DNA of 64,000 bases. Origin: Trichomonas vaginalis G3. Its lineage: Eukaryota; Parabasalia; Trichomonadida; Trichomonadidae. The notes beneath the pieces are model-generated. The model saw only the letters and a program-made list of their open reading frames with translations. It was not told the DNA's origin and did not search any database. The stretch lies in contig NC_067204.1 of the NCBI RefSeq assembly GCF_026262505.1, positions 9,519,797 through 9,583,796 on the forward strand. Direction: 5' to 3'. Positions 10,485 to 58,972 of this stretch are shown in pieces; position 1 is the stretch's first letter; each line of letters begins with the position of its first letter. Position numbers and translations under genes: made by a program.

Positions 10485-10493
10485 CTGACTGCT

Positions 10494-11133: not shown

Positions 11134-11535
11134 ATGTATGAAATGAACAATATACTCGACAAGGGTTTGAATGTAAAGCTAACGAATGAAAATATTGTTG
11201 AATTCACTGAGACAGGTGCTGTGTATAAAGATGTAGAACTACTGAACAAAAGAGCTAAGGGAAGAAGCAGGAACATGAACAAAGGGTAGAAGCCTATAAA
11301 AATTTATGTCAATGATGGCTCAGGAGGTTCAAACATAAAGTATGCAGAAAGTTATAGAGTTTATGCTCTCAAAGGTGAAAAGCCTTCATTTAAGAACAGC
11401 TATTCTAACGCATATCCTCAAAAGCTAACGGATGGGGAAGTGGATGATATGAATGACAGCAAAAATATTAACAGAAATGGCGACAGAGATGCATGGAATT
11501 TGTTTACCATCAGTCAATTGAAGATTAAACTTTAA
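11134..11535 (+). pseudogene. Conserved Maverick hypothetical protein with nonsense mutation
   Basis: The ATG at 11134 begins M-Y-E-M-N-N; the frame meets TAG at 11287-11289 where element B (30348-30749) has TGG (Trp), then continues open to 11535. So a single G-to-A change truncates it at 51 of 133 codons. The product is basic in its middle (K-R-A-K-G-R-S-R-N) and unrecognised. Its end overlaps the end of the ATPase gene by 4 bp. Confidence 0.65.
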
Positions 11536-12419
11536 AACAATGTTGGTCGTTCCCATGGAATATTTTTGACTTTAATGGTATTAGTCATGATATGAATCTC
11601 AAGGTATGAACGAGGAGAGATGAGAGACTTATATGCTTCCCAAATTTCTTCAAAAGGTAATGTTATACCTGACTGTTTCCAAATGAGTTCAATATCATAA
11701 CGTGAGAAACCTTGAAAGATAACGAAGTCAGTTATGAGACGTTTTATGTTTAAAGCTAAAAACCTCCATGTTTGCATAAGTATTGCTACAGTTAAGTGGT
11801 AATGTCTGACTTTAGTAATGATGTTAGCTAATGGTGAGTCTGGTTTTGACACTAAACCTTTTCCGGCGAAGTCGTCACAAACGAGCAGAGTGTTTGAAGG
11901 ATACTTTTTGAAGGGGTATTTTGAAAGTTTTGACAGAATGTAGTTTGTAAGTCGTTTCATATCGTAAACTCCTGAGTATTGACGTAAGTGGTGTTTGTCA
12001 ATAATTCTTTCCATCTCCTCAGAAGTCTTTTGCATTCCTGACTGTATAAATTCAACGATGGCATAATATTTCCTCTTACGTCGAATGTAACGTTGAAGAA
12101 ATTCAATGAGTTCACTGTCTGGAACTTTAACGACAGAGGCTTGAACTTTTGACATAAATGTTTTCGCTGTTGAATCCATAGAGTCTGAAGTTGCTGATAT
12201 AATGATTTGGTCATAGTAAGAGTCGTTTCCTAAACGCTCTGTTATGAGTATATGACGAATGAGGTTAAATGTCTTACCTGAACCCATCTTTCCACAATAG
12301 AAATAAACACCATTTGAACAGAACTCATAGTCCTTACTGAAAGGAAGAATGAGAGAACTGTTGAGCTTTTCACTGCTTTCATTCATGTCTTCATCTACGT
12401 CATGTATTAAATGCTTCAT
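11532..12419 (-). CDS. FtsK/HerA-type (A32-like) genome-packaging ATPase
   Basis: 295 residues, intact. Walker A 'GKMGSGKT' at residues 43-50 and Walker B 'LLVCDDFAG' near residue 180, with a conserved 'RHYHLTVAILMQTWR' (sensor-like Q) downstream, as in the DNA-packaging ATPases of Mavericks and nucleocytoplasmic large DNA viruses. It would pump element DNA into a capsid. Divergent from the 12436 gene with 16 bp between start codons. The element B copy (29465-30351) carries a one-base deletion. Confidence 0.9.
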   Translation of the reverse strand: MKHLIHDVDEDMNESSEKLNSSLILPFSKDYEFCSNGVYFYCGKMGSGKTFNLIRHILITERLGNDSYYDQIIISATSDSMDSTAKTFMSKVQASVVKVPDSELIEFLQRYIRRKRKYYAIVEFIQSGMQKTSEEMERIIDKHHLRQYSGVYDMKRLTNYILSKLSKYPFKKYPSNTLLVCDDFAGKGLVSKPDSPLANIITKVRHYHLTVAILMQTWRFLALNIKRLITDFVIFQGFSRYDIELIWKQSGITLPFEEIWEAYKSLISPRSYLEIHIMTNTIKVKNIPWERPTLF

Positions 12420-12435
12420 TTTATCTCCATTAAAA

Positions 12436-13316
12436 ATGCAAGTCAGAAATATTCAGAACATAGCACCGAGTCTAACTGACAAGAGTATAAAGATATACTA
12501 TGAACACGTTATGATGAAACCTACCAAAATTCAAGAAAGTCAGTATACTTATGAATATCCAAGACACTGGGTAGAGTATATAGGAGGTGAGAAAGCTATT
12601 GAAATAAGACAAGTTAGAAGTATTCCAGCAGGAAGAACAATATTATTGAAGAACTTTAATGTTTTGAGGTATAATGATGAAACAAAGAAGCAAGATAGTT
12701 TTCCTGTTGCTGTGTATGTGAACCTAGACACAGGAGATGACATGAAAGTTTTTAACACAAAGCTTCAAACGGTAGTGAGAGAACAACTTACTGCGGAAGG
12801 ACATCCATTACCTTCAGAAGTTACCATAGCATATAATTTTGAAATAAATGCAATAGATTTTAAAGTCATCTCTGCAAAGAAGTCAGGTTTTACATTTAAT
12901 GAAGCAGATGTATATTCGAATGAAAACTTCAAAGCTATTGCATGGTTAGATAATGACGATTGCTTTAAGAAAATATTTAAATACAGTGACTCAACGATGT
13001 CAATAGATGACCTTCGTGGAATGTTACCATCGACGTTTACAGTAGAAGGTTCAGCAGGATTGCTTACAAGATTGTCAATTGTGGTATTTGGTCTCGTGAG
13101 AACATTGTTATAAAATCCAGTATAAGTGAATTTGCTGAAGAATCTATATTATGTCTTTCAAACTATATGTATTCGCCGCCGAAGCATTATAGTATAACAA
13201 ACTTTGTCAGTAAGTTTAACATAAGACTTGTCGAACCTTCTTCAATGAAAGATGTTGTGCTACCCAAAGACGGAAAGGATGGACTCATTATTGAGATGAT
13301 TTTAATAGCATATTAA
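12436..13316 (+). pseudogene. Probable minor capsid (penton-like) protein, frameshifted
   Basis: About 293 codons from ATG 12436 to TAA 13314-13316. The frame is lost near 13081, where one G is missing from a GG pair present in element B (28575-29448). Motif Y-x-Y-P-R-H-W-V in the N-terminal part and V-V-L-P-K-D-G-K-D at the C-terminus recur in two other genes of the window (44534-45386 and 24663-25512), marking a paralogous family. Likely beta-rich. It sits beside the ATPase as capsid genes do; the penton-like assignment is inference from context and size. The stop codon abuts the next ATG (TAAATG). Confidence 0.6.
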
Positions 13317-13541
13317 ATGAGCTTGTTCTTGAAGGTCATTCATGATGAAATAACTGTTGTAGAAGATGTTAGCAATTGTTCAGACATTTTGAAGCGTATA
13401 GATGATATAAGAAATAAGTTAGATAGACCGCAAAGCGGTGAGGGCGAAGCCCGTGAGAATGTTTATGTTTCATTGACTTTCTCCAGTAACGAGAACTTTT
13501 ATGAGATAATATTGAAGAGAGATGATTTTAATATGGTGTAA
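13317..13541 (+). CDS. Small Maverick protein abutting its neighbours
   Basis: 74 residues. Its ATG directly follows the TAA of the upstream gene and its own TAA directly precedes the next ATG, so three genes are joined by zero-gap TAAATG junctions. A twin mini-hairpin at 13428-13452 encodes residues 38-46 (P-Q-S-G-E-G-E-A-R). The element B copy (28352-28574) loses two bases inside this hairpin and is frameshifted. Function unknown. Confidence 0.6.
   Translation: MSLFLKVIHDEITVVEDVSNCSDILKRIDDIRNKLDRPQSGEGEARENVYVSLTFSSNENFYEIILKRDDFNMV
13428..13452. repeat. Twin mini-hairpin in coding sequence (A)
   Basis: CCGCAAAGCGG, spacer TGA, GGGCGAAGCCC. The GCGAAGC core of the second half is the well-known very stable DNA mini-hairpin. 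Confidence 0.85.
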
Positions 13542-14069
13542 ATGGTAGCTTGGGCAGCTTTAGGCGCAATGGGAACAAAAGCATTAGCATTTGGAGCAAA
13601 AGCACTTGGAGCTTATGACGCAGTAAATAAAATGAGTGGAGGAAGGGTTTCGAAGACATTAGATGCAAATAAAGGGAAGATTGGAGGCTGGGTTGCAAAG
13701 AAGTTAAGATTAAATAAAATAGGGCTCATAAATAAAGCATCCAATTTGGTTGCGACTGAGTCAGAAAATGCTTTAGGAAAGGACGATGAGTTTGCAAAAC
13801 ACGCAAAAGACTTTAATGACCAGATGAAAGGTGAAACAATGCATTTAAATAGAGTCGATGGAACTAAAGAAAATGTTTCTTCTCCACAAGTAGTTCTTCC
13901 ATATGGTCCCTATGGAATGTATGGAAACCCTTACGAAAGACCATTTGACCCATTGACTGGTGGAAGTAATTGGTATCATTACGGCCGAAGAAGAAAGGCA
14001 GTCAAGCTGGAGACAGATGTTAAGAAAGCAACTAAAAAGAAACCAAGGAAGAGAGTTATAAAGCAATGA
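13542..14069 (+). CDS. Maverick structural-type protein with Gly/Ala N-terminus
   Basis: 175 residues, intact. The N-terminus (MVAWAALGAMGTKALAFGA) is a small-residue amphipathic or membrane-active-looking helix; the centre is basic; then a P-Y-G-P-Y-G-M-Y-G-N-P-Y stretch; the C-terminus is very basic (KKATKKKPRKR). This design resembles minor virion proteins that contact membrane or DNA, which I infer only from composition. Broken by a one-base deletion in element B (27825-28351). The last ~30 bp are shared with the 3' end of an unrelated gene (48295-48531) in element B. Confidence 0.65.
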   Translation: MVAWAALGAMGTKALAFGAKALGAYDAVNKMSGGRVSKTLDANKGKIGGWVAKKLRLNKIGLINKASNLVATESENALGKDDEFAKHAKDFNDQMKGETMHLNRVDGTKENVSSPQVVLPYGPYGMYGNPYERPFDPLTGGSNWYHYGRRRKAVKLETDVKKATKKKPRKRVIKQ

Positions 14070-14076
14070 ATTCAAC

Positions 14077-14138
14077 AGGGTAGAAATCGGGTTAGTTATC
14101 GGGTTAGATCTAACCTTCTACCCTAAATTTATTTTTGT
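14077..14138. repeat. Border repeat R5, GGGTAGA flavour
   Basis: GGGTAGAAATCGGGTTAGTTA, GGGTTAGATCTAACC, TTCTACCCTAAATTTATTTTTG. At the same locus element B (R12, 48546-48609) has the GGTGAA flavour between identical flanks (aatgaattcaac ... tatgttttcatac). Confidence 0.82.
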
Positions 14139-14212
14139 GCTATGTTTTCATACGTGTGGAAGTGGTGATATCATTAATTTTTAAGTTTATTTTTTATTTT
14201 ATTTTTATATAA

Positions 14213-14497
14213 ATGACAGAACAAAAGCAACTCATACAAATCAAAACATATAACAAACATACATTTAAACATTTATTCTTCCTTCCTGAGTATAACATGT
14301 TCTTTACACTTCATCCTAGACCAGTTGACTATACACTGACTGTTTATAAAGATTGTCATGGTAGTTTTATAAAAACTTATGATGATGAAGGTAAGTTAAC
14401 AAGACTATGCATTTCAAAACTTGAGAAACTTTATGACTTCAAGTATGACTACAATAGGGTTAACATTGACGATGAAGATATAGAAGAAAATTTATGA
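14213..14497 (+). CDS. TIR-borne small protein, divergent allele
   Basis: 94 residues starting MTEQKQ. It occupies the same place, with the same upstream sequence (ttttatataaATG), as the 106-residue MTKTIE protein carried by both TIRs of element B, and shares its plan (F-K-x-L-F-F near residue 20, S-K-L-x-x-x-Y/I-x-F-D later), but most residues differ. An allelic or paralogous small acidic-tailed protein. No domain recognised. Confidence 0.6.
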   Translation: MTEQKQLIQIKTYNKHTFKHLFFLPEYNMFFTLHPRPVDYTLTVYKDCHGSFIKTYDDEGKLTRLCISKLEKLYDFKYDYNRVNIDDEDIEENL

Positions 14498-14690
14498 GAA
14501 CGTTTATTTTTTCATTAGTGAGTTCGTTAGTGAGGTGAAATGGTTGGCGGCTTTGTAAATATTTAAGGTTAAGTTAGTTTTTGCGTTCATGTTGTAAAAT
14601 ATACATTAGCGGTTTTGTAAAGTGTCAAATTCACATATAATGGGTAAGGAGGCGCGCAGTGCCTCCGTACCCAACTAACCCATACTAACT
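14498..14690. repeat. Terminal part of element A TIR
   Basis: Same sequence as the ends of element B: (g/t)TTGTAAAATATAC, GTGTCAAATTCACATATAATG, a GGAGGC...GCCTCC hairpin, ending CATACTAACT. All element ends in the window finish in the core (G/C)(T/C)ATACTAACT, that is, TIRs begin 5'-AGTTAGTAT. Confidence 0.8.
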
Positions 14691-15094
14691 AATGGGAGAT
14701 ATATAAAAGCAATAGATACAAACGGTAAGCGGGTTTCATTAGCTTTGTCAAAACTTACTAACATTTATTTTGACAGTGACTTTGACTCTGACGATTGGAG
14801 TGATAGCAGCGATACTGAAGAATATGAACTATTGTGTGAAGCACAGCAATGGGAAGCGCTGCAATACTTTTGTAAATGAGAACATTAGTGAGAACGTTTA
14901 TTTTTTCATTAGTGAAGTCGTTAGCGAAAACGTTAGTGAGGTGAAGTGGTTGGCGGCTTTGTAAATATTTAAGGCTAAGTTGGTGTTTGTGTTTGTGTTG
15001 TAAAATATACGTTGGCGGTTTTGTAAAGTGTCAAACTGTTATCTTGGGTGGGGTGGAGTGTAGTGCCACCATACCCAAGATAGGTATACTAACT
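14691..15094 (+). mobile_element. Remnant end of a further Maverick
   Basis: 14691-14879 is the 3' half of an MTKTIE-type TIR gene (ends ...LLCEAQQWEALQYFCK, stop at 14877), and 14880-15094 is a second complete TIR end finishing GTATACTAACT. Element A therefore ends inside the TIR gene of another Maverick copy, which itself abuts host DNA at 15095. Confidence 0.78.
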
Positions 15095-27167: not shown

Positions 27168-27695
27168 AGTTAGTATACAAGTCTCGTGTATGGAGGCACT
27201 GCGTTCCTCCGTACGCAATACTTGTGAATTTGACACTTTACAAAACCGTTAACGTATATTTTACAACATAAACACAAACACTAACTTAACCTTAAATATT
27301 TACAAACCGCCAACCACTAACGACTTCATTAATGTAAAAATAAACGTTCTCACTTACAAAAGTATTGCAACTCCTCCCATTGCTGTGCTTCACATAACAG
27401 CTCATAATCTTCTGACTCACTTTCTTCTTCATATAGGTCAAAGTCACTGTCAAAATAAATGTTAGTAAGTTTTGACAAAGCTAATGAAACACGTTTACCG
27501 TTTGTATCGTATGCTTGTATAAACTTTCCATTCTTCATTCCTTCATAAACGCTCAAACTAACTTTACCCTTTCTCCCTCGTATCTGATAGAATGTATTTT
27601 CACGAGGAACGAAGAACAAATTCTTGAACTCATGACCGTTGTAGTTTGTTATCTCAATAGTTTTCGTCATTACATCCAAAATAAAATAAAAAATT
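27168..27695. repeat. Left TIR of element B
   Basis: About 520 bp, inverted copy of 48640-49161, including a complete small gene. The outer part has a GGAGGC...CCTCC hairpin (27193-27211), then GTGAATTTGACACTTTACAA. Confidence 0.85.
27350..27670 (-). CDS. TIR-borne small protein (MTKTIE type), left copy
   Basis: 106 residues from ATG 27670; nearly identical to 48671-48991 (one visible Y/H difference). Contains 'FKNLFFVPRENTFYQIRGRKG', a basic-aromatic N-terminal half, and a strongly acidic C-terminal half (YEEESESEDYE). Being encoded within both TIRs it is present twice per element. No domain recognised; may be an early regulatory or nucleocapsid-type protein (inference). Confidence 0.7.
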   Translation of the reverse strand: MTKTIEITNYNGHEFKNLFFVPRENTFYQIRGRKGKVSLSVYEGMKNGKFIQAYDTNGKRVSLALSKLTNIYFDSDFDLYEEESESEDYELLCEAQQWEELQYFCK

Positions 27696-32407: not shown

Positions 32408-35400
32408 ATGACTATTGCTGCATATGCGTATGAAACAAATGAAGCAAGAAGAGCACATGAACTAGTAAACGAAAACTCAACTTTAACCATTGAAGGCAAT
32501 GATTTAGTCATTGACGATGGAAAAACTAAAAAAGTCATTGATTTCGATACTTTTAACACTTATGACCCATTCATTACAACAAGCAAGGTTCCCATCATAA
32601 ATGATGGAACGGTGCAATATATAAATTCTACAGTAGATGCCTCATTAGTGAAAGTATTAAATGTTCTCATTGAATTGTTAAAGAGCTTTCGATTTGACGA
32701 CAACATTAAATGCCTAAAGAATTTAGTCATGAATGAGAAACAAATATTAGGAGTTGCTGGTAGCAGTAATGATGTACACCTTATGACATTAGAATATTAT
32801 AACGAACATAAAGATGAACTGAAAGGAGAGAAGGGTGACACCGGACCACAAGGAATACAAGGACCTCAAGGAATACAAGGACCTCAAGGAATACAAGGAC
32901 CTCAAGGCGAAAACGGTTTGGATGGAAAGGATGGAAAGGATGGAAAAACTGCTAAATCATGGATATGGGACCTTATAAATACTGGTTTAACAGCTGCTTC
33001 ATATGGAGTTCTTCAATACCAAATCGGAAAGATATGGGCAGTACTTGGTGAAGAAGCTTTAGATGATGTTAAAAATGCTTTGAACTTCATTTCAAATGGT
33101 TCGGATACTATTAAAACTTTATCTGGTTGGATGCAAGAAACAAGGAGTCAAATAGATACTGTAAGACGTATAGCAAACAATGCACGTACGGGATTGGATA
33201 CTTTACGAAAAGCACAAAATACACTAAAGGAAGCAAATGATATTCTTGGCTCAGTATCAGACATGCATGAAGATTGGCTTAAAGGTATTGACAAATCTTT
33301 AAAAAATCACAGTCAGTCTATTGCTGACTACAAGAAAAGTATAGATTTTTTACATAGTGCTATGGACGTACATGATGGAAGCATAAGGAACTTACTTAAT
33401 GCTAACAATAACTTACCAGGAACTATTAAAGCATTTATAAAGTCCTTTGTAAAACCCGGTGCTCTAACATTTAGGTCTTTGAGAGCAAGAGCATTGAAGT
33501 CAAGAGATGCAGAAACTCCAACAGAAACTCCAGAAGGAACTGAAACAACAGAAACTCCAGAAGAACCACCAAAACCAACAGCTAATGAAATATTGTTCGA
33601 ATATTTTCCAAGGTACTCTGTTCTCATTGCATACATTCAAGAAATACTTAAGAAAGCAGACTTGACTTTAGGAGATGATGAAAGTTCTGTATATCTTTCG
33701 TTCCAATTCCAAATAGCAGAACTTTTGAGACAGATATGCTTAATGTATGACAACATCTCTGATTTCACAAGATATGACGACGACCATGACCCCGAACACG
33801 GTGAAGAAGAAGTTTTACAAACATCCATTAAGACAGGAAAGGTTTTAACTCAAAGTCTCATTATTGACACCAAAGATGGCGAAGTGGACGTTCTTCAAGA
33901 GCTGAAGAAAAATACTTCTTCGGGAGGTGGTGGTAGGCATGAACTTGAAATAAATGAGATAGAAGAGAAATTAGCCGAAAAAGCAGATAAAAACCACGTT
34001 CATTATATAACTTCAGACGAACAGATTATAACAGACTACCATGGATATTTAACACGAAGTGATGAAGTGAAGACGGAAGATGTTAATGAAAGAAGATATA
34101 AATACATTCGTGCTAAAGGTTATGACATAAGCTGTACTGTACAGTATGACACGGGTAAAGCACCAGAAGCATTTAGTTATAACGATGAAATTTATGCCTC
34201 TACTTTCTCTGTTAAAGGTGTATTAGTTGAACCAAGATTTACTTTGAGAGTTAAGTCAAAAATAACGTTTGAAGATGCTATTAAAAGTAAAGCTGACAAA
34301 ACAGAACTTGACGCAACGAACAAAGTTTTGAAATCTCATAAACACAACATCTCCGATATAAATGAACTTCAAACTTCTTTAGACAGTAAAGCCGACAAGA
34401 ACCATACACATAAATCCTTCACTACTGTTAGAGCAGACGACATAATATTGAACTTTGACCTTGGTTCAAGTGCACCTTTAGAGAATCCAAGTACAAGCGT
34501 AAAAGATACACTAAACTCCTTAAATAGTAAATGTATGAACATTGAAGGTCATGTCAGAAACTTTGAAACACATGAACTACCAGCAATGTTAGATAAGAAA
34601 GCAGATAAGAACCATACACATGATTTCTTCACAACTGTTGGTATAGAAAGTATTGAAGGAACGGTTGAAGGAACTGGTGGGGATGCATTATATTGGAAAC
34701 CTCCTAACTTTCCACAAGGTTTAACATCGGAGGAAAACATAACGACGATGAAATACATTAGATGTAGAAATGTTTATGTCATGGAGGATGAAAATAATGT
34801 TAAATTCACTGCTCAAGATTTATATGATAAGAAAGCCGACAAGAACCATACACATAAATCCTTCACTACTGTTAGAGCAGACGACATAATATTGAACTTT
34901 GACCTTGGTTCAAGTGCACCATTAGAAAATCCAAGTACAAGCGTAAAAGATACTCTTAACAATTTAGATAAGAGTTGCAGGAATACCGAAGATCATGCCA
35001 GAAACTTTGAAGCATATGAACTACCAGCAATGTTAGATAAGAAAGCTGACAAAACAGAGCTTCAAACATTAAAGACAGAAATACTTCAAACATTATATCC
35101 TATAGGTTCTATTTATACGTCAATGAACTCAACAAATCCAGCAACAGTTCTGGGTTTCGGTACGTGGGAACAGATTGTAGATAAATTCTTATACTGTGCG
35201 AACTCTTCAAAGCAAACAGGTGGTTCGAAGAAAATTAAAGAAGCAAACCTTCCACCGCACACTCATACAGGAACTACAAACACAACAGGTAGTCATTCAC
35301 ATTCAATAACAAAAAGAGGTTATACAAATCTTGCAGCAGGTTCGGATAGACAGGGAATGCATAGATATGATATTTCAAGTGACCCAGTAGATTTAAGCAC

Positions 35401-35521
35401 AGGTATTTTCTGTGGAACCACAGGAAATCATTCACACACTTTCACAACAAATCCAACAGGCTCGGGTGAAGATTATATGCCACCATTTGTGACTATATTC
35501 GCATGGTACCGCGTTCAATGA
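32408..35521 (+). CDS. Giant phage-like attachment fibre (element B, intact)
   Basis: 1037 residues. Same plan as in A: head, collagen-like G-x-x tract (here with three 'GPQGIQ' units against fewer in A), helical shaft, P/T/E linker, 'KADKNHTH' repeats and tail-collar tip. It is 82 residues longer mainly because a KADKNHTHKSFTTV...SSAPLENPSTSVKDTL block (34395-34600) is duplicated at 34833-35040. The tip, about 35280-35440, is replaced relative to A, between HTHTGT and HSHTFTT. The last codons and stop lie in a palindrome (35510-35526). Confidence 0.85.
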   Translation: MTIAAYAYETNEARRAHELVNENSTLTIEGNDLVIDDGKTKKVIDFDTFNTYDPFITTSKVPIINDGTVQYINSTVDASLVKVLNVLIELLKSFRFDDNIKCLKNLVMNEKQILGVAGSSNDVHLMTLEYYNEHKDELKGEKGDTGPQGIQGPQGIQGPQGIQGPQGENGLDGKDGKDGKTAKSWIWDLINTGLTAASYGVLQYQIGKIWAVLGEEALDDVKNALNFISNGSDTIKTLSGWMQETRSQIDTVRRIANNARTGLDTLRKAQNTLKEANDILGSVSDMHEDWLKGIDKSLKNHSQSIADYKKSIDFLHSAMDVHDGSIRNLLNANNNLPGTIKAFIKSFVKPGALTFRSLRARALKSRDAETPTETPEGTETTETPEEPPKPTANEILFEYFPRYSVLIAYIQEILKKADLTLGDDESSVYLSFQFQIAELLRQICLMYDNISDFTRYDDDHDPEHGEEEVLQTSIKTGKVLTQSLIIDTKDGEVDVLQELKKNTSSGGGGRHELEINEIEEKLAEKADKNHVHYITSDEQIITDYHGYLTRSDEVKTEDVNERRYKYIRAKGYDISCTVQYDTGKAPEAFSYNDEIYASTFSVKGVLVEPRFTLRVKSKITFEDAIKSKADKTELDATNKVLKSHKHNISDINELQTSLDSKADKNHTHKSFTTVRADDIILNFDLGSSAPLENPSTSVKDTLNSLNSKCMNIEGHVRNFETHELPAMLDKKADKNHTHDFFTTVGIESIEGTVEGTGGDALYWKPPNFPQGLTSEENITTMKYIRCRNVYVMEDENNVKFTAQDLYDKKADKNHTHKSFTTVRADDIILNFDLGSSAPLENPSTSVKDTLNNLDKSCRNTEDHARNFEAYELPAMLDKKADKTELQTLKTEILQTLYPIGSIYTSMNSTNPATVLGFGTWEQIVDKFLYCANSSKQTGGSKKIKEANLPPHTHTGTTNTTGSHSHSITKRGYTNLAAGSDRQGMHRYDISSDPVDLSTGIFCGTTGNHSHTFTTNPTGSGEDYMPPFVTIFAWYRVQ

Positions 35522-35561: not shown

Positions 35562-36629
35562 ATGAGCTTGAAAGAAGTATTCGAACAACATCCATGGAGG
35601 TCTTTTAAGAAATTCAATGAAGCTGCAAAGAGTTGGGGATTTACTAACAGAGCTGAAGTGAAAAGGTTCTTTGACAAAAATGTTGTACATCAAACAAAAA
35701 TAAATCCTTACGACTACTTTTTACCAATTTACTCCAACACTCCTGACGCATACCAATTTGACACTCTCATTCAAAGCAGAAAAGGAGGACATAAACCATT
35801 CCTCATCTTCATTAATGTTAACACTCGCAAAGCTTTTGCGTATATAATGAGAAATAAAGGAACTCATGAAGTGTTAAGAGTTTTACAAAAGTTTGTAGCA
35901 GAACATAGCCCAAGTATTTTAACATCAGACCAAGACGGTGCATACCTCAGCAACGAAATCACAGAATTTCTCATTAAGCATAACATAACTCACTACACTA
36001 CTGAAGACCATAACCATAACATACTCGGTATCATTAACCGCTTCATAAGGACTCTCAGAGATTTAAATCAAGAGCGAGACTTTACCGAAGAAACAATGAA
36101 ACATTTCATCGAAGTTTACAATTCTGGACATACACCAAATTCAATGACACAACAACAAGAAGAAAAGTATATACAAAAGAAACGAAGTCAAACACAAAAT
36201 ATCAGAAATTCAACACAATTTACTCTCATTCCTGGAACAAAAGTTCGTGTAGTTCTTGACGACAAACCGTTGACAAAGAAACGTTTAAGGTTAAGTCGAA
36301 ACTATTATATCGTAGACTCTACGCAAGGTAATGGATATCTTATAAAAGCTGCTGACGACTCCATAGCATTTTATCCTCGTCATAAATTAGTCGAAAGTAG
36401 TAATGGCAAACTTGCTGAAACCATTGACGAAGCAAAGCGAGGAGTGGTTATTGAAATACTTGACTACAACATAAACGATGACACTTATAAAGTAAGATAT
36501 GAAGGAGGCGTTGAAGATGTTATACCATCTAAGAACTTGAGAGAATCTAAACCAACTCATCTGGGACCATTAGAGCGGGAGTACTGGAAAGATAAAAACA
36601 TGCCAGAAAGAATAAGAAAATTCTTCTAA
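35562..36629 (+). CDS. Retroviral-type integrase of Maverick (element B, open)
   Basis: 355 residues. N-terminal helical region, DDE-type core with D67 (QFDTLIQS) and D123 (TSDQDGAYLS), and a chromo/SH3-like C-terminus. The residue 35 positions after D123, where retroviral-type integrases have the catalytic Glu, is N159 (GIINRFIRTL); element A also has Asn. Against A, six codons (S-T-H-S-T-T region) are missing after 'EVYNS', a conserved zone of integrases. So although open, the enzyme may be inactive or use another residue. Integrates Maverick DNA by analogy with the family. Confidence 0.88.
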   Translation: MSLKEVFEQHPWRSFKKFNEAAKSWGFTNRAEVKRFFDKNVVHQTKINPYDYFLPIYSNTPDAYQFDTLIQSRKGGHKPFLIFINVNTRKAFAYIMRNKGTHEVLRVLQKFVAEHSPSILTSDQDGAYLSNEITEFLIKHNITHYTTEDHNHNILGIINRFIRTLRDLNQERDFTEETMKHFIEVYNSGHTPNSMTQQQEEKYIQKKRSQTQNIRNSTQFTLIPGTKVRVVLDDKPLTKKRLRLSRNYYIVDSTQGNGYLIKAADDSIAFYPRHKLVESSNGKLAETIDEAKRGVVIEILDYNINDDTYKVRYEGGVEDVIPSKNLRESKPTHLGPLEREYWKDKNMPERIRKFF

Positions 36630-48639: not shown

Positions 48640-49161
48640 ATCATTTATTTTTTATTTTATTTTTATATAAATGACGAAAACTATTGAGATAACAAACTAC
48701 AACGGTCATGAGTTCAAGAATTTGTTCTTCGTTCCTCGTGAAAATACATTCTATCAGATACGAGGGAGAAAGGGTAAAGTTAGTTTGAGCGTTTATGAAG
48801 GAATGAAGAATGGAAAGTTTATACAAGCATACGATACAAACGGTAAACGTGTTTCATTAGCTTTGTCAAAACTTACTAACATTCATTTTGACAGTGACTT
48901 TGACCTATATGAAGAAGAAAGTGAGTCAGAAGATTATGAGCTGTTATGTGAAGCACAGCAATGGGAGGAGTTGCAATACTTTTGTAAGTGAGAACGTTTA
49001 TTTTTACATTAATGAAGTCGTTTGTGAAAACGTTAGTGAAGTCGTTAGTGAAGTCGTTAGTGTTGTAAAATATACGTTAACGGTTTTGTAAAGTGTCAAA
49101 TTCACATATAATGGGTAAGGAGGCGCGCAGTGCCTCAGTACACGAGATATGTATACTAACT
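48640..49161. repeat. Right TIR of element B
   Basis: Inverted copy of 27168-27695 including the small gene; ends GTATACTAACT at 49161. Confidence 0.85.
48671..48991 (+). CDS. TIR-borne small protein (MTKTIE type), right copy
   Basis: 106 residues, practically identical to 27350-27670, start context TATAAATG. Aromatic/basic N-terminal half and acidic tail. The downstream 170 bp to the TIR end have no other gene. The copy pair stays near-identical, so the TIRs are probably homogenised by replication or gene conversion. Confidence 0.7.
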   Translation: MTKTIEITNYNGHEFKNLFFVPRENTFYQIRGRKGKVSLSVYEGMKNGKFIQAYDTNGKRVSLALSKLTNIHFDSDFDLYEEESESEDYELLCEAQQWEELQYFCK

Positions 49162-49649
49162 AAAGTTCCAAAACTTTGGGTTAATTGCAAGACATTAACC
49201 CAAAGTTTTGGAACTTTCAAGTGGAGATGGAAGGCTTTGGGGTACATATTAATATAATATACCTCAAAGCCTTCCATCTCCACTACAAATGGGAGAAACT
49301 TTGTCCGAATAGTTTAACATTCGACAAAGTTTCTCCCATTTAAAGAAAAATTGTTCCTTATGAGGTATATATTCATACTGTATACCTCATAAGGAACAAT
49401 TCCCTCCTTAAAACGAGAAAACTTGTTCGAAATTGTTTATCATTTCGAACAAGTTTTCTCGTTTTTAATAAGAAACTAAGGCTATGAGGCACTGATTATA
49501 TATTAGTGCCTCACAGCCTTTAGTTTCTAATAGATAGCTGGGAAACTTTCTCCAAATGATAAGTTATTCAGAGAAAGTTTCCCAGCTATCAAGAGGAATT
49601 GTTCCTTATGAGGTATATAGTTATAATGTATGCCTCATAAGGAACAATT
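49162..49649. repeat. Array of eight different long hairpins
   Basis: Stems (bp) and positions of arms: 1) 49162-49184/49195-49217, 23, perfect; 2) 49221-49244/49260-49283, one mismatch; 3) 49287-49310/49319-49341, one bulge; 4) 49350-49369/49381-49400, perfect; 5) 49410-49433/49442-49465, perfect; 6) 49471-49493/49505-49528, few mismatches; 7) 49533-49552/49571-49590, perfect; 8) 49597-49617/49629-49649, one mismatch. Loops are 8-18 nt and gaps between hairpins 3-10 nt. Sequences differ, except that 4 and 8 share the arm TTGTTCCTTATGAGGTATA and the follower CAATTCCCTC. The array abuts the TIR end of B exactly. Confidence 0.9.
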
Positions 49650-51569
49650 CCCTCATTAAAATCGTAGATATTTTTTACTTATTACTCATGCTTTCAAAAT
49701 CACAATCCTCTGAAAAGTTATTTTTTATTAAGAATTTTAGAATTTTGATAAATACCTTTTTTCAATTTGATATAATACTTATATATTTTCAAAAAGACAT
49801 TTTGAAAAGATATCTCAAAAGTTCTCTGAAAACCTATTTTTGATTAATTTTGAGAAATATCCGTATTAAATTAATCAATAAATTCATTCAACACTACTTT
49901 AATTTTTAAATTCAAAAAATTATATGTGCTTCTTAAAATGTCTCACAAAAATTTTATTATAAAATTATATACAATATTAAAAATCCCACAACATTTTTTA
50001 CTTTACATAATCGTACTTCCTCGACGATTAATTTCCACTCAATTCCTATCGTTGACCGAACTTAGCAACAATACTTCTAGTCAAACGCTTTAATATGATC
50101 TTATTCGAATTGAATTATGTTATAGACCGAAAATAGATTTTTTCGGTTTTCTCTTCAAATAATTGAAAGAATGATACTATTATAGGTTTATTATATTATA
50201 TAGCATATAATCATGCTATAGCCGAAAATTATAAGTTTTGAGAAGATTGAATATAACACAAATAAATTTGAATGTAAGTTAAATTGCTTGTTGTTTTTAA
50301 TAGCAATTTAATGAGAAATCCAATATTGCAAAATTCAAATTGAATGATTGAAAGAACAGAAAAAGTCATTCTTTTCAATTTCGAATATGTTTCATTGTAT
50401 TTATAATTAGATGGCAAATAAGATATTTAAACTTGATTTGTAAAGGAAAATTCACAAAATTGAATAAATTCAAATAATTTTTTTCAAAAATAAACCAGTT
50501 ATTTGAGTTTAATACTAATTATCTATTCAAACTACAAAGTTTGTAATTTAAAATATTTTGTGAGATCAGATTGAATTAATTCAAGGTTCTTTTCAATTAA
50601 TATTAATGACCATATTACGCATTTTCGAACATTCTATACCAAATATATAAAAATGGGAGACGAATGTTAAATTTGCTAGACATGGGGGAGTTGTCTGCAA
50701 AGTTTTAGCTCTTATCTCTAACAAAAAATTAATTTTTAAAAAAAAAGACCGAATACGTTTCACAGCGAGAAAAAAATAAAAGGCAAGATAGAATTTTCTA
50801 GACATAAAGAAGTTGTTTACCGAGTTTTAGCTCTTATCTCTAACAAAAAATTAATTTTTAAAAAAAAGACCGAATACGTTTCACAGCGAGAAAAAAATAA
50901 AAGGCAAGATAGAATTTTCTAGACATAAAGAAGTTGTTTACCGAGTTTTAGCTCTTATCTCTAACAAAAAATTAATTTTTAAATGCAAAAATTGAAAAAC
51001 CCATTTCAATACTTCCTATTCATTTCCATAATAACTTCTATTTTGTGCTCTCGATTGTTTAACTTTAAATGCGCAAATTGCTACAGTTCATATTTTCCTT
51101 ACTGGCGTAAAAATGGAAAAAAAGGTTTTCTAATTTATGTCATAATAGGTTAATGTAATCGATTGTACTTTATTTAAGAAAAAAACGACAATCGTATTTT
51201 TTTGAGGAACTCTAATAAAAAATAAAATCATTTTTTGAAACAAAAGTACTCATGATAAAAGCTACTTTTGTATAACTTTTAGGCAATTTTGACTCTTGGG
51301 AAAATTTTTGAGAAGGGAATCATGTAAATCAAATTTTATAAACATTATTTTAATTTTAGTTTGAAATATGTTTCTATCGATTATTGTTCCATAAAAATTC
51401 TTTCGAAATTGAATTATGTTCGATATGGCTATAGAAAAATTGCATATGCCTTTCAAATTTCTTTCCCAAGTGGGTCATTAATATATAATAAGTGGATTTT
51501 ATAAATGAAACTAGATTCAACAATGTGGATTATAAAGTATTCAATTGATTTGAAAGTAAGATTATCATA
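49650..51569. other. AT-rich intergenic region with 121-bp tandem repeat
   Basis: No gene recognised. About 2.6 tandem copies of a ~121-bp unit lie at 50669-50982 (unit contains TTTTAGCTCTTATCTCTAAC and GACCGAATACGTTTCACAGC). The second and third copies are almost identical, the first diverged. The rest is AT-rich spacer. Confidence 0.65.
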
Positions 51570-51577: not shown

Positions 51578-53206
51578 ATGCTTTCCTCCCAACCGGCATC
51601 GCATTTCTTAAACCTCTTCGGTGGCCGCTCTAAGTCCCACCTCCGTGTAGGCGAAAAGATGTTCTGCTTCCAATGCCAGGAAACAAATAACAACACAGGC
51701 TGCACAAAGAAGGGTGTTTGCGGCAAGCAAGCTTCCACAGCTAACATCGAAGATGAAATGGTCCAAATCGTTAAGGAAATTTCTATCGCTCTCGGTGATG
51801 GCGCCGTTTCCGTCGAGATGGGCGAACTCTTAAACAAGACACTCTTCATGACCATCACAAACGCTAACTTCGATGATATCGCTCTCAAGAGACAGCTTGA
51901 CTATTGCAAGGAGATCAAGTCTAAGCTCACAAAGAAGAACATCACAGCTCCACTTGGTGTTAACTCCCATTCAAATCCAGATGTTGTTTCACTTCGTGAA
52001 ATGATTCTTTACGGCGTCAAGGGTATGGCCGCTTACATCGATCATGCTGCTATGATCGGTTTCCATGATCCAGAAATCTACGCCTGGCAAGTTAAGACAC
52101 TCGCCAAGCTTTCTAAGGAAGAAGACATCAACAACCTTATCGCCCTCACATTAGAAACAGGCAAGTACTGCGTCAAGGGTATGGAACTCCTCGACAAGGC
52201 CAACACATCTCGCTACGGCAAGCCAGAGATGACAAAGGTCAACATTGGTGTTGGCACACGCCCAGGCATCCTTGTATCCGGTCACGATCTTAGAGATCTT
52301 GAAGACCTCCTTGAGCAGACAAAGGATTCCGGTGTCGATGTTTACACACACGGTGAAATGCTTCCAGCTCATGGCTATCCATTCTTCAAGAAGTACCCAC
52401 ACCTCCGTGGCAACTACGGTGGCCCATGGTTCCGCCAGGATCGTGAATTCGGCCCATTCAACGGCCCAATCCTCATGACAACAAACTGCATTGTCCCAGT
52501 CCGCAAGGAGTACAAGGACCGCATCTTCACAACAGGCGCTGTCGGCTGGCCAGAACTCAAGCACATCCCAGACCGCAAGGATGTCAACGGACAGAAGGAC
52601 TTCTCAGAGATCATCGCTCTCGCTAAGACATGCCCACCACCAAAGGAGCTCGAAAAGGGACAGGTCACAGTCGGTCTTGCCCACGATCAGGTTCTCGCCG
52701 TCGCTGACAAGATTGTCGAGGGCGTCAAGAACGGACAGATCAAGAAATTCGTCTGCATGGGTGGTTGCGATGGCCGCCATAAGGAACGTGACTACTACAC
52801 AAAGGTTGCTAAGGCACTTCCAAAGGACACATTAATCCTTACAGCTGGCTGCGCTAAGTACCGCTACAACAAGCTCGACCTTGGCGAAATCAACGGCATC
52901 CCACGTGTTATCGATGCTGGCCAGTGCAATGACTCATACTCCCTTGCTATTATTGCCCTCAAGCTTAAGAAAGTCTTTGGCCTTGACGATGTCAACAAGC
53001 TCCCACTCGCTTTCGATATCGCTTGGTACGAACAGAAGGCCGTCTGCGTCCTTCTCGCTCTCCTCTTCCTCGGATTCAAGAACATCCGTGTTGGCCCAAC
53101 ACTTCCAGGCTTCCTTTCTCCAAACGTTGCTAACGTTCTTGTCAAGAACTTCGGCATCAAGGGAATTGGCTCAATTGAGGATGATCTCAAGGATATCCTT
53201 CAGTAA
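51578..53206 (+). CDS. hcp: Hybrid cluster protein (prismane / hydroxylamine reductase type), hydrogenosomal
   Basis: 542 residues, intact. Residues 1-27 ([16 protein letters not shown] then RSKSHLRV) look like a hydrogenosomal presequence (M-L-S start, basic, no acids). The [4Fe-4S] Cys set is C30-x2-C33-x8-C42-x5-C48. Hybrid-cluster ligands are visible in 'CMGGCDGRH', '[10 protein letters not shown]', 'GQCNDSY' and 'WYEQKAV'. The family reduces hydroxylamine or NO and protects against nitrosative stress. Codon use is strongly C-ending, as in highly expressed trichomonad genes. Inr at 51570. Confidence 0.96.
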
Positions 53207-53413: not shown

Positions 53414-56400
53414 ATGCGCGCAGAAAAAAATAACTTTTCAGTTATGAAACGGAGACAAGCCTGGAAGCCTGAAAAGGAGAAACCAGAGTGCTTAGTCTCC
53501 GCTTTAAACGAAAGTTGGTGTCTACCAGCAATGACTCAGCCAAAGATTTCGAAAAATCCGATTTATAAAGATTATTTTACACATTTTCCTGTAAATTTAG
53601 AAATTTTCAAGGGGAACGAGCTAATAGATCTATACTTTAAAGATGTAATATCAGCTACACAAAACAATGATTATGAAATTTCGATTAAAAAATCAAGAAA
53701 ACCAAAATTTAATACTGTAAAAGATATTATTAATGGAGAAAAGCCAGTTAATTCAAATATTTACAATAAACAAGTTGCGTACTTCTTCGTTAAGTATACA
53801 AATAACCCGCCAATCTCACCAAGAACTCTAAATTCGCGTTATTATTCACCTTTTACATTAGAAAAAGCCGTATATCTTGCTACTCAGTTTGAAGATATCA
53901 AGTATACATTCGTTCCAGGATCCCCAATTGTTGTTCGCACATATTTATTTGATGGAGAAGAAATAATTACTGAAATGGTAGATTGGATACCGCAAGCATG
54001 CGCCTCAGAGTTCCAAAGTAAGAAACATTTCTGGAACGTTCAGAAAATCGCATACGAAATGCCAAGATCAAATCCAGATCTTGCTTTAGTTGTAACATTA
54101 TCTCATCCACTTCACAACAATCACGGAGATGCATTTATCAATTATTATCAAAAGGCTAACGAATCTACATTAAAATCAGCGAAAAAACAAATCATTGAAT
54201 TATGGAGTATGCAAAATACTGTTTTAGAAACTTTTGCTTGGACAATAGCAAGAGTAACAGATATACTTTCAGCCGAAGGATTGTTTACCTTCCCAAATCC
54301 CGTTCCAATCGGATCTCAACCTGATAAAGAAACAATCATGAAAAATTTGCACGAATTCGAGAAGAGAAACCAACTAAATCTCAAAATAACTATAAATGCC
54401 AAACTTATGCATAAATCTAAAGAAATTGCAGGATATAAAATTGCAAAATCACTTTCATATAAAGAAACTACACCATCCTATCAATTCAGACATCATATAG
54501 TATTCACATTAAACGAATTACGCATTACAAAAAGCTTTGAAAATGTAATTGCAAAAATTTCTTTATTCAACAAGAGATTGAACAAGAAACTACCAGCGTT
54601 TACAGCACCTTATTCATCAGAAAGGACAACATCGGCTATTACAAGGCTTCATACTCAAAAATTTCGAAGTTCAAGTTTGGTATTTTTTAATGAGCGCTTT
54701 ACTTTCGAATTACCTGCTAAGATATCAATAGATATTACAATCCAGATAGAACTTTTCAACATAAGAGTTAGCCATCCCAATCAATTCAACCAAATTGATA
54801 AAATAATTATTCCTTATGATGATCCACGCGTTTACATCGATAGTATTTACGAAATTGGTGCTAATTTGAAGCGAAGTCTCTTTCCAAGACTCAGAGTTGC
54901 TGAACTTACTCTTAAATCCAACTTTTCTGAAGGAATTTTTTTACTTGATGACATAATAAACGACCACAACACCAAGATCTGCTATTCTTATGCGATGCAG
55001 TTTGGTCTTCCTCAAGATTTCAAACAAACCATGGTAAATCTCGTCAATTTCATGCCCGAATCGAGTTATACAATATGGTTTGTCCTTGAATTAGCCCTAA
55101 AAGACACAATTAAACCCGATTCCAGGATTGAAGTTCTGAATCTTATTGATAAACTAACAGAAATGAAGAAAATCGACCACATTGCACGATTTACTAACTG
55201 TTTACTAGGTTTAGGATTCGTTTCCGCCGCCAGCGAAATCGTTTACAGAGTTTACCAAAAGTTGATTGAAATGAAAAGCGATGCCAACTTGTTTTACATC
55301 AATTTATTGACTCCGAGACATATCTGCGAATCCTTTTTGTGCACGGACTATTCCATTATGACATTCTCTTTAGTTTGCCAATCAAAAGATCTCAGAGTTT
55401 TCGAGAGATTGTTAATTTGTTTCAGTGAAATTCCTGACAAATTAACTAAAGAAATATTGAAGAGAATGATGCCTCCTTTATCATTCCTTTTCCCCATTAA
55501 GAACTGTCCTTTTGTCATGTTCTTCCTTGAAAACATCACTGACGAAATGTTTAAAGAGTGGTGGCCGAAAGTTAACCACAAAGATGTTTTGTCATCAATG
55601 TTTTATGATGAACAAAGGTATCAGTTGTCAGGATTGACGTTCTACGACAAGTGTTTGAGCCCTGGAAATATATCATTGATTTCGCAATTAATTTTCGATT
55701 TAATTCCTAATTTGGTTGTGAACAATTTCCAGTTGGTTTTTCAAATAATTTCAAAAATGACAGAAATGAAAGAATTTTACAAAAAGTGTCAGCCAAATTT
55801 AGCTGTTTTCTTTTCACGTGTTTTTATGTTTTGTGCAGCTTATAATGATGGATATAAGCTGTTCAGTTCTTTGTATGATGGCGACAAAAAGTTCCATAAC
55901 TCAGTTTCAAGAAGTCGAAGTATTTTGACTTATTCAATTTATTTGGCCGACCAAAAATATCTGAAAAACGTGAGTTATTTAAACAAAGACGAGACAAAAG
56001 CATTGTATCAGAGAGTGTTGAATTACAAGCACTTGAAGAATGATCTCTACGAACAGTCCAAAGTCATCAAACATTCTCCAGACGCTTTTGTTGATTTGAT
56101 GTTGAAATTAAGTGAAAATTATCACAAAGAAGACATGTTTTCAGAGGAAATTCAAACGAAAATATATGTTGTAGCATATATTGTTGAACACATGATATAT
56201 CTACATAAGATCCAGGATATATTTAACACGAATCATCCTTTTGCAAACGTTTGTCCTTCTTCTGCAAATATTGTTCCTTCTGGAAAAGTTTGTTCAGGAA
56301 TTTTCACTGATTTCTTCACAAAAGAATTCCTCCAAAAACTGGTCAAACAAACAATTGATGTTTGCTTGGAATCAAAGTACTACGAATACGGAACATCTTT

Positions 56401-57331
56401 TATTGATGATGTAGTTCCTTTGTGCCAGTTTTTGTTCAATTCTTTCTTTAATAAAGAGAAAGAAATGATGATAGAAAAACTCCAAAATGTCGAAAAAAGA
56501 TATTTTGGAAATTATTTCAGAGTTTCTTTCATTGGAAAAAAGTTTTGCCATGAAAATGGATTAGTCTTTGTTGTCCATTTCCCGAAACTTTCCCGTTTGT
56601 TGGATGTTTGCAAATATTACACGAATTATTGCAAAGAAAAGTTTGGTGAAAAGACAAAAATAGAAGTTGTTCAAAGCATCGGACAAATAACTGATGAAAT
56701 GAAGAATGACAAAGAAAAAGTCTATTTTTGTGTCACTTTCATCGAACCTTATCATAAAGATCGTGAGAATTCAAGCGGATTTGAAAGTTTCCATTTCGTC
56801 AACAATTTCTTTTTCGAAAGGCCATTCACTATTTCAGGGAATGCACAAGGAACTGTTGAAAATCAATGGCTGGAAAGAACTGTTTTGTCGACATCTGATA
56901 AAATGCCATCAGTCTCAATGCGATCGCTTGTTGTACGTGAGAAAAGCATCAAAATGTCTCCGATTCGTGTAGCTTATCGACAGTTACATCAAAGAGTCAT
57001 TAATTTAGAGAATACAATAAATTCTGGAGCATATGAGACTTTACAGACACTTTTATCAGGTAATATAATGATCTCTGTTAATGAAGGCGTTGTGAGAATT
57101 GCTGAAGTATTCTTAAATAGTCCAACTACTGAAGACTACGAAGATCCAGTTATTCTAAAATACAGAGTCAAACTGAAAAATGTTTTCGAAGATTTTTTGG
57201 AGAAAAACAGAGAAGGACTCGAAAAACACAAAAATTATGCAGCAGAGCACCAAAATTTCATGCCATTGCATAATGAACTATCAACAAAATTTGAGCAACT
57301 CGAGAAAACACTTTCACAATACTTGTCGTAA
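53414..57331 (+). CDS. DOCK-family guanine nucleotide exchange factor (DHR-2)
   Basis: 1305 residues, intact. The C-terminal ~330 residues are a DHR-2 domain: 'YFRVSFIGKKF', 'YFCVTFIEPYHKD', 'NNFFFERPFTISGNAQGT', 'QWLERTVLST', 'KMSPIRVAYRQLHQRV', matching the lobe B/C blocks of DOCK proteins (F-Y-G-K-K-F, V-x-P-Y, P-F-T-x-x-G, Q-W-x-R-R-T, L-S-P-I-E). The middle is all-helical armadillo-like; a diverged DHR-1/C2-type region may lie near residues 310-480. These proteins activate Rac/Cdc42-type GTPases and control actin. There are several in-frame early Met codons, so the exact start is uncertain. Confidence 0.86.
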   Translation: MRAEKNNFSVMKRRQAWKPEKEKPECLVSALNESWCLPAMTQPKISKNPIYKDYFTHFPVNLEIFKGNELIDLYFKDVISATQNNDYEISIKKSRKPKFNTVKDIINGEKPVNSNIYNKQVAYFFVKYTNNPPISPRTLNSRYYSPFTLEKAVYLATQFEDIKYTFVPGSPIVVRTYLFDGEEIITEMVDWIPQACASEFQSKKHFWNVQKIAYEMPRSNPDLALVVTLSHPLHNNHGDAFINYYQKANESTLKSAKKQIIELWSMQNTVLETFAWTIARVTDILSAEGLFTFPNPVPIGSQPDKETIMKNLHEFEKRNQLNLKITINAKLMHKSKEIAGYKIAKSLSYKETTPSYQFRHHIVFTLNELRITKSFENVIAKISLFNKRLNKKLPAFTAPYSSERTTSAITRLHTQKFRSSSLVFFNERFTFELPAKISIDITIQIELFNIRVSHPNQFNQIDKIIIPYDDPRVYIDSIYEIGANLKRSLFPRLRVAELTLKSNFSEGIFLLDDIINDHNTKICYSYAMQFGLPQDFKQTMVNLVNFMPESSYTIWFVLELALKDTIKPDSRIEVLNLIDKLTEMKKIDHIARFTNCLLGLGFVSAASEIVYRVYQKLIEMKSDANLFYINLLTPRHICESFLCTDYSIMTFSLVCQSKDLRVFERLLICFSEIPDKLTKEILKRMMPPLSFLFPIKNCPFVMFFLENITDEMFKEWWPKVNHKDVLSSMFYDEQRYQLSGLTFYDKCLSPGNISLISQLIFDLIPNLVVNNFQLVFQIISKMTEMKEFYKKCQPNLAVFFSRVFMFCAAYNDGYKLFSSLYDGDKKFHNSVSRSRSILTYSIYLADQKYLKNVSYLNKDETKALYQRVLNYKHLKNDLYEQSKVIKHSPDAFVDLMLKLSENYHKEDMFSEEIQTKIYVVAYIVEHMIYLHKIQDIFNTNHPFANVCPSSANIVPSGKVCSGIFTDFFTKEFLQKLVKQTIDVCLESKYYEYGTSFIDDVVPLCQFLFNSFFNKEKEMMIEKLQNVEKRYFGNYFRVSFIGKKFCHENGLVFVVHFPKLSRLLDVCKYYTNYCKEKFGEKTKIEVVQSIGQITDEMKNDKEKVYFCVTFIEPYHKDRENSSGFESFHFVNNFFFERPFTISGNAQGTVENQWLERTVLSTSDKMPSVSMRSLVVREKSIKMSPIRVAYRQLHQRVINLENTINSGAYETLQTLLSGNIMISVNEGVVRIAEVFLNSPTTEDYEDPVILKYRVKLKNVFEDFLEKNREGLEKHKNYAAEHQNFMPLHNELSTKFEQLEKTLSQYLS

Positions 57332-57633: not shown

Positions 57634-58972
57634 CTAAATCTATTTATATTCAGAATTGCGAAATTGATATCTCCTTCCTTAAAAAAATATGAACTTAATA
57701 TACTAGATAAACAAAACTTTTATGAGATTATATAGGTAATACAGAATATTGGACAGGTGTCATCCCGTTATTATCTTTGGAATCTTTATCTGCACCATGG
57801 AATATCAGAAATTTTGCTGTATCTTGTGGAATAAATCTTACGGCATAATGAAGAGGAGTTTTCCCATCATTATCTTTTAAATTTATATTAGCCCCATGTG
57901 AAATTAGAATCCTTGCAATCTCTATCCAATTATTTTTTGCTGAATAATGAAGGGGAGTTTTTCCATATTTATTCATTGAATTTACATCTGCACCATGCAA
58001 AATAAGAAATTTGGCAGTTTCTGGACAATTACACCATGCTGCATAATGTAGCGCAGTGCATTCGCTAAAATCTCTTGCATTGACATTAGATTTATGCTTA
58101 ATAAGAAGTTCAGTAGTTTTGATACTATTACATGATGCAGCATAATGAAGCGGAATGTATCCTTTTGCATCTTGCTTTCTGATATTTGAACCATGTGAAA
58201 GGAGAATTTTTGCAGTTTCGATATCATTATATTTTGCGGCATAATGAAGAGCAGTTTTCTCATAGCGTTTATTGGGTAAATTGATGTATGCTCCATTACT
58301 AATAAGCAGCATTAAAATTTTTCTATGCTTATATTTTGCTGCATAATGTAATGCTGTTTGGTATTTCCTATTTGTTTTATTAATAAGAGCATCATGTGAA
58401 AGTAGAATTTTTATTATTTCTATCTTTTTATTATATCTCGCTGCAAAATGGAGTGGTGTATCTTCACAAACATTATCTTTAGCATTAACATTAGCTCCAT
58501 GTGAAAGAAGTAGCTCTATTATTTCTTTATTTTTATTTTTGACCGCATAATGAAGAGCAGTTTGACCATTTTTATTTTTTGCATTAACATCAGAATCATG
58601 TGAAATAAGGAGTTTTGATATTTCTTTATTTTTATTTTTTACTGATAAATGAAGGGCTGTTTGGCCATTTTTATCTTTAGCATTGATATCTAAATCAAAT
58701 GAAAGAAGAAATTCTGTCATTTCTTTATTGTTATTTTTTACTGAAATATGTAGTACTGTTTTCTCGTCTTTATCTTTTATATTAACATCAGCATCATTTG
58801 AAAGCAGAAACTTTGCTTGTTCTCTATTATTATTTTTTACTGCAATATGAAGAATTGTTTGGCCATGTTTATCTTTTGCATTAACATCTACCTTCTGTCC
58901 AAGGATTAATTCAATTATTTCTTTACTGTTCTTTTGAATTGCATTTCTGAGTATTTTTCTTTGAATAGTATA

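Follow-up and report, generated by a model that had tools for sequence, protein, structure and literature searches.

The row of eight hairpins at 49162-49651 of the window, by which we mean the whole 64-kb stretch of Trichomonas vaginalis DNA analysed here, is, on the evidence of sequence comparison, what survives of an array of 11 hairpins that belonged to a DNA transposon of IS481EU type. Arrays of this kind may be a portable cis-acting module of T. vaginalis transposons that works as DNA, a reading that we hold with some caution and rate a little below an even chance.

All eight stem-loops announced in the original prediction, which was made from the letters alone, are present according to a palindrome scan, folding and shuffled controls. 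They are near-perfect, the first opening at 49162 and the last closing at 49651. The ungapped scan recovers seven of them, and hairpin 6, which has a one-base bulge, is recovered by folding. Dinucleotide shuffles of the array stretch gave an equally strong hairpin in 1 of 300 trials, versus the seven observed with the same scan; the remainder of the window holds two hairpins of that strength, and five whole-window shuffles gave none. Folded as single-stranded DNA, the array stretch reaches z = -31.5, and 0 of 100 shuffles folded equally well. The features are as follows, L002 and L009 being two copies found elsewhere in the genome and A and B the two hairpin classes described below.

27168-49161, no strand assigned: Maverick-type element; its right end adjoins the array and cuts it short; inverted ends at 27168-27694 and 48647-49161, from self-comparison
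49162-49217, no strand assigned: hairpin 1, class B, with a 24-bp stem and 8-nt loop; equivalent to hairpin 4 of the complete element's 11-hairpin array
49220-49284, no strand assigned: hairpin 2, class A
49287-49341, no strand assigned: hairpin 3, class B; right arm one base short relative to L002
49349-49401, no strand assigned: hairpin 4, class A
49410-49465, no strand assigned: hairpin 5, class B
49471-49528, no strand assigned: hairpin 6, class A by way of its counterpart in L009; one-base bulge in the window copy, from the fold
49533-49590, no strand assigned: hairpin 7, class B
49595-49651, no strand assigned: hairpin 8, class A; near copy of hairpin 4
49652-50070, forward strand: AT-rich 3' tail of the IS481EU-type element, ending in the right terminal repeat with a short deletion (terminal letters read by eye)

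The hairpins thus run B A B A B A B A. It had been proposed that the stems differ from one another except that hairpins 4 and 8 match; the match is borne out by comparison, but the other stems are not unrelated, as they make up two alternating classes. Nor are the hairpins unrelated MITE fragments, which would have refuted the proposal: they belong to a single array type, though one that lies within transposons. Beyond the array, the window contains a prismane / CO dehydrogenase family gene (51578-53206), a DHR-2 (DOCK-type) gene (53414-57331) and, by self-comparison, short repeats at 50670-50983 and 58317-58890.

The carrier was recognised by searching the 180.9-Mb assembly (86 contigs) with the 488-bp array, which gave at least 231 matches (best 40 of 1235 candidates scored), and 20 matching places were taken with their flanks for element analysis. 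One of them holds a complete copy of the carrier family, hereafter F1.

L009:4427-6893, 2467 bp: complete F1 copy with a 22-bp terminal repeat, a 349-aa transposase ORF, 11 hairpins, an AT-rich tail and an inverted terminal repeat

The 22-bp terminal repeat, TGTTGCATGCTAAGTTCGGTCA, has 387 exact copies in the genome (reversed control, 0). The 349-aa ORF matches the Pfam families rva_4 and rve_3 above cut-off and rve 0.1 bit below it, and shows the catalytic spacing D-56-D-34-E; the array begins about 80 bases past its stop. All 11 copies examined at both ends have the termini TGTTGC..GCAACA, which fit TNT..AYA, and nine of these 11 have a perfect 4-bp target duplication, absent in L013 and L023. 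Window positions 49162-50067 are 99% identical to L002:1501-2408, while the left part of the element is absent from the window. The main text of Kojima and Bao (2023; PMC10045372) describes the IS481EU transposons of parabasalids as having an rve-type DDD/E transposase, TGT..ACA ends and short terminal repeats, and gives for IS481EU the termini TNT..AYA, terminal inverted repeats mostly below 50 bp and target duplications of about 4, 15 or 25 bp. With ends, short repeats, duplication and transposase type all in agreement, F1 fits an IS481EU-type transposon. The TGT ends and 4-bp duplications had first suggested a Ginger element, an identity that is not favoured because the IS481EU description fits better; the same authors separate IS481EU from Ginger1 and Ginger2 (PMC10045372). 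Among the F1 copies, L013:2670-7396 contains two inverted back to back, the first truncated and the pair sharing no target duplication, and an ORF beside another copy (L002:2951-3490) looks malic enzyme-like by eye. Foldback transposons have long terminal repeats made of tandem units. F1 was rejected as a Foldback element, its terminal repeats being only 22 bp and its array internal and one-sided.

The neighbouring Maverick-type element has an rve domain in the ORF at 35562-36629; its integrase is not a close relative. The first hairpin does start at the first base past the Maverick end, as had been claimed (boundary 49161/49162). The array therefore lies outside the Maverick terminal repeat, and this position, together with the differing flanks (AAAGTT on the right, GAGTAC on the left, with no matching 6-bp duplication), rules out that it is part of the Maverick. 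Since the Maverick abuts the array without such a duplication, the junction probably stems from a later rearrangement. The further proposal that array growth is linked to Maverick insertion, units being added beside the terminal repeat, did not survive: complete copies such as L009, with its 11 hairpins, are housed in a transposon that has ends and a target duplication of its own, the Maverick end in the window only truncates the array, and longer arrays step by 250 bp (four hairpins), which resembles internal tandem duplication. A capture array tied to Maverick insertion, or a eukaryotic CRISPR-like locus, is accordingly a reading to which we give hardly any weight. It could draw on the contact with the Maverick in the window, on Maverick-like ends seen by eye beside array copies in L015, L021 and L027, and on the CRISPR-like repeat arrays reported in T. 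vaginalis in 2023 (PMC10696477), but it is already contradicted by the complete elements. Moreover, its units would have to be identical direct repeats with unique spacers, whereas those observed are two diverging classes of related palindromes, separated by spacers of 0-14 bp and one of 30; the CRISPR-like arrays reported in this species (PMC10696477) may conversely include such hairpin arrays. Maverick-like ends at L012:1230-1278, L015:5171-5219 and L021:6515-6561 contain a short hairpin whose GAGGC..GCCTC-like core resembles class A by eye. The window also has two Maverick-type stretches in opposite orientation (1-15094 and 27168-49161), about 77-98% alike in matching pieces; phage tail-fibre-like domains (Gp10_C, PTR) occur in long ORFs of both (6590-9457 and 32408-35521).

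The two classes are each built on a palindrome of their own. In class B, a stem of 24 bp closes a loop of 8 nt, and the core AAACTT is near-invariant in 12 hairpins, one of which has T for C; class A is marked by the core TATGAGGTA, with outer arms resembling GGAATTG. Under the class rule, a short motif test built from the same hairpins, the order is strictly A B A B A B A B A B A in L009, L010, L011, L012, L013 (first copy), L015 and L016, and one array place falls below the scan threshold in L014, L017, L019 and L028. Each class aligns without gaps, and for the covariation analysis hairpins were picked by hand, as distinct types, from 130 distinct sequences; they are not a random sample, and the shuffles used as control leave their relatedness in. 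In class B (24 stem pairs, 12 hairpins), 16 pairs change on both sides, six are invariant, one changes on one side and one only via an unpaired cell; 96.9% of the 288 cells pair, versus a shuffled mean of 70.1%, and the covariation score is 0.686 versus 0.156, reached by 0 of 500 shuffles. In class A (25 pairs, 13 hairpins), 21 pairs change on both sides, 92.9% of the 325 cells pair versus 69.0% after shuffling, and the score is 0.646 versus 0.209, again reached by 0 of 500. The weakest measure, that of further pair types, was reached by 7 of 500 shuffles for B and 1 of 500 for A. Counted by cell, class B has 75 two-sided differences versus one that is one-sided (G-U) and nine that are unpaired, and class A has 71 two-sided versus 10 one-sided (G-U). 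Stems are thus kept while letters change, in line with the earlier suggestion that compensated differences would imply selection or a common generating mechanism.

The second regularity is one of spacing. Of 299 pairs of neighbouring hairpins (L009-L037 and the window, pairs being counted at less than 90 bp between centres), 245 have their centres exactly 62.5 bp apart and 282 depart from that value by at most 1 bp; these pairs mostly come from relatives and are not independent, and two places are counted twice (the window is L028, and L011 and L034 overlap). This length corresponds to about six turns of B-DNA. The spacing is held despite hairpin lengths of 42-68 bp and spacers of 0-14 bp, with one of 30. 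All 10 intervals of L009 are 62.5 bp, as are all nine scanned intervals between class A and B hairpins in L036, an array carried by a MULE transposon, and the two arrays align without gaps with 390 of 688 positions identical. The spacing is not free of exceptions, intervals in the window copy being 62.5, 62.0, 61.0, 62.5 and 61.5 bp. Set against L009, the arrays of ten young copies differ by 47 substitutions and 13 indel events; L017 accounts for six of the indels and the window copy for four. Indels thus arise in young copies, yet the diverged L009 and L036 arrays hold one spacing, which looks like constraint.

Arrays are also found in elements other than F1. Members of F2 (e.g., L024, 2017 bp) are without most of the transposase but retain the ends and 14 scanned hairpins; the F2 array in L024 is less regular, with uneven stretches and with hairpins that are weak, fit no class or show the motifs of both, and three of its five gaps fold into further hairpins, the other two only weakly. 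A second element of this kind is still smaller.

L030:1887-2833, 947 bp: non-autonomous element with ends and five hairpins, no transposase, target duplication GGAT

The array in L030 belongs to this separate element, which excludes as its owner the transposase of 62% identity found in the same locus. Arrays are thus retained in elements that have no transposase. A further rve element, which has inserted itself at hairpin 1 of L012 and is flanked there by a duplication of about 15-17 bp, has its own four-hairpin array 3' of its transposase. In F3 (L029, L031), the transposase is 48-49% identical to that of F1, and the array is 92.8-94.1% identical to the F1 array and inverted relative to the transposase. 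The two families differ at 14 of 254 stem sites in L031 and 18 of 256 in L029, versus 172 of 402 positions between the tails of F1 and L031; arrays so much more alike than the element tails have, we infer, been exchanged between F1 and F3. At least 24 of 40 F3-group transposase matches have an array within 2.5 kb, and 16 have none among the arrays listed. The distant IS481EU-like relatives L032 and L033 show no array in the 1.5-1.9 kb downstream, where L032 has a single hairpin with 13-bp arms.

The most distant carrier, F5, belongs to another superfamily. In F5, the array is placed some 250 bp upstream of an ORF that encodes 559 aa and matches a MULE domain (PF10551, 33.6 bits, cut-off 27.6), a size near that of the 557-aa TvMULE3 (Lopes 2009; PMC2725143), so that an unrelated transposase is found with an array placed 5' of the gene, in contrast to its 3' position in IS481EU. 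Among the matches listed for the best 40 F5 arrays, at least 34 arrays have a MULE gene match within 3 kb, and 26 of these adjoin a shortened gene remnant less than 700 bp away. Best identities between MULE and IS481EU hairpins are 39, 45, 40, 43 and 33 of 56 for class B, where 500 arm-shuffled sets gave a maximum of 33, equalled by one of the values, and 41, 42, 49, 40 and 36 of 57 for class A, with a maximum of 35 in 500 sets. Tested class by class in this way, the hairpins of the two superfamilies appear to be homologous. The end of the MULE array has two or more hairpins of neither class, and its hairpins 10-11 are weakly class-like. At the F5 termini, 22 of 23 bp form an inverted match when the left end of L036, an interrupted copy, is set against the right end of a different copy, L011; TvMULE elements are described in the main text of PMC2725143 as having terminal repeats with target duplications of 9-14 bp. 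A hairpin arm of L011 that seemed to encode part of a recombinase was set aside, the gene being the MULE transposase, to which the arm is fused only in deletion derivatives. Among the 150 MULE gene matches listed, 28 fall in G000:C2:1181402-1995940, many at steps of about 5.1 or 6.4 kb, as in a tandem-like cluster.

Array size varies widely. Regular arrays have 5 (L030), 7 (L020, L022, L026), 11, 15 (L018) or 35 (L037) hairpins, the longest being the following.

C3:12980700-12983900 (L037): array of 35 hairpins, perfectly alternating and A-ended

Because array matches step by 250 bp, that is, by four hairpins, arrays probably grow by duplication of four-hairpin units, judging from these alignments. 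Genome-wide, the A core pattern TATGAGGYAN{9,25}TRCCTCATA has 870 sites and a 30-place B core pattern has 1357, each with a reversed control of 0; in these B sites, one stem pair is C-G in 428 cases, mismatched in 61 and, by subtraction, T-A in the remaining 868. Exact hairpin patterns had no match in viral_contigs (two patterns) or genome_contigs (one pattern). In the first 15.36 Mb of contig C1, exact F1-type terminal repeats number 24, some elements contributing both of their ends; an A hairpin occurs no more than 2.2 kb from 23 of them, and 21 of the 28 A clusters in that region are equally close to such a repeat.

Could the arrays then be a functionless satellite that hitchhikes on transposons, spreads by unequal exchange and capture, and owes its palindromy to arm copying, i.e., template switching at imperfect palindromes? 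Expansion in 250-bp steps up to 35 hairpins would fit, as would the exchange implied by F1 and F3 arrays far closer in their stems (14 of 254 sites in L031) than in their tails (172 of 402), and simultaneous copying predicts what is seen in class B, where differences are nearly all two-sided. Recent copies speak on both sides. Changes per site in 22 of them are 0.0075 in stems, 0.0179 in loops, 0.015 in spacers and 0.0035 in the tail, and stems that change more than the tail count against a DNA module and for a satellite. On the other hand, among the 76 stem substitutions of these copies, 34 break a Watson-Crick pair and none is compensated, so that arm-to-arm correction is not fast and the paired change must have accumulated in propagating lineages. 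The near-invariant cores and the spacing kept across diverged arrays look like constraint, as does the A hairpin at 23 of 24 terminal-repeat sites on C1. On balance, we consider such a satellite unlikely, although it retains an appreciable share of our belief.

A function at the RNA level, with the hairpin chain acting as small-RNA precursors, silencing decoys or mRNA-protecting 3' structures, seems to us rather improbable. The stems of about 24 bp with short loops would suit it, and so would the start of the F1 array about 80 bases after the transposase stop; palindromes yield a near-identical hairpin from either strand, which makes orientation-independence compatible with this reading too. 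For the host, a putative RNase III and two PIWI-like Argonautes are reported, together with 34-nt small RNAs that correlate with reduced gene and transposon expression (PMC7845603). However, RNA hairpins offer no evident cause for centres phased at exactly 62.5 bp, the MULE array sits 5' of its gene, and one-sided G-U changes are rare (1 versus 75 two-sided in B; 10 versus 71 in A). Rfam gave 95 matches at E up to 1 on 49000-50200, none at the family gathering score, so that a microRNA or other structured RNA family was rejected as identity for the array on sub-threshold matches only. On the transposase strand, G-T and A-C stem mismatches number 5:6 in F1, 9:7 in F2 and 2:6 in F3 (16 versus 19 in sum), with 8:5 in F5, where the strand is marked uncertain; being about equal, they give no support for selection on a transposase-strand RNA. 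The 61 mismatched B sites, many of which are copies of one another, are polarised 53 to 8 in favour of T-G on one strand (by loop letters), which speaks against bias being wholly absent and could hint at a one-strand RNA or at few ancestral events. A third of them, 20 of 61, lie in G000:C4:10344001-10707357, which suggests local amplification of one mutated array.

The array is found 3' of IS481EU transposases, 5' of the MULE transposase and inverted in F3, which makes it independent of position and orientation. This placement in different superfamilies, the inverted F3 array and the centre spacing favour a role at the level of DNA. In a module of this kind, A and B palindromes would alternate with each symmetry centre 62.5 bp, or about six helical turns, from the next, and would form a row of symmetric binding sites or extruded cruciforms, all on the same side of the double helix. 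A host factor shared by both superfamilies would recognise the module and thereby raise its carrier's expression, its persistence or its copying in connection with replication; what the window shows would simply be such a module cut by the Maverick end. The fully paired stems count against a plain binding site, for which a symmetric core alone would be needed. More specifically, and more tentatively still, one palindrome lattice may have been adopted by unrelated superfamilies and their non-autonomous derivatives as a host-directed control element of phased cruciforms or symmetric sites.

The main text on IS481EU (PMC10045372) never uses 'hairpin', 'palindrom' or 'internal repeat', and that on TvMULE (PMC2725143) is likewise free of 'hairpin', 'palindrom', 'tandem repeat' and 'secondary structure'. 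In the open-access main texts covered by the literature search, we found no description of these arrays, nor any such palindrome-lattice cis-element for a eukaryotic transposon. Known systems nonetheless offer partial likenesses. In the BIME arrays of bacterial REP palindromes, at least two palindrome types alternate, joined by short linkers, and the arrays are linked to mobile elements. The T. vaginalis arrays share these traits, but lie inside eukaryotic DDE and MULE transposons and have long, fully paired stems and an exact lattice of centres. In plants, the subterminal repeat arrays of Ac and En/Spm consist of sites that bind the element's own protein. Here, too, a non-coding array of sites lies within a transposon and is kept in non-autonomous copies; the T. 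vaginalis array, by contrast, is common to two unrelated transposase types.

That symmetry, alternation and spacing are kept while letters change, and this with two transposase types, suggests that transposons trade host-responsive cis-modules, and carriage by unrelated families points to a shared function of folded or symmetric DNA. The arrays also offer a natural test of selection versus arm-to-arm copying in palindromes. The T. vaginalis genome is very rich in transposons (PMC7845603), and with 870 A-pattern and 1357 B-pattern sites there are many loci at which the module could influence chromatin, transcription or the movement of forks.
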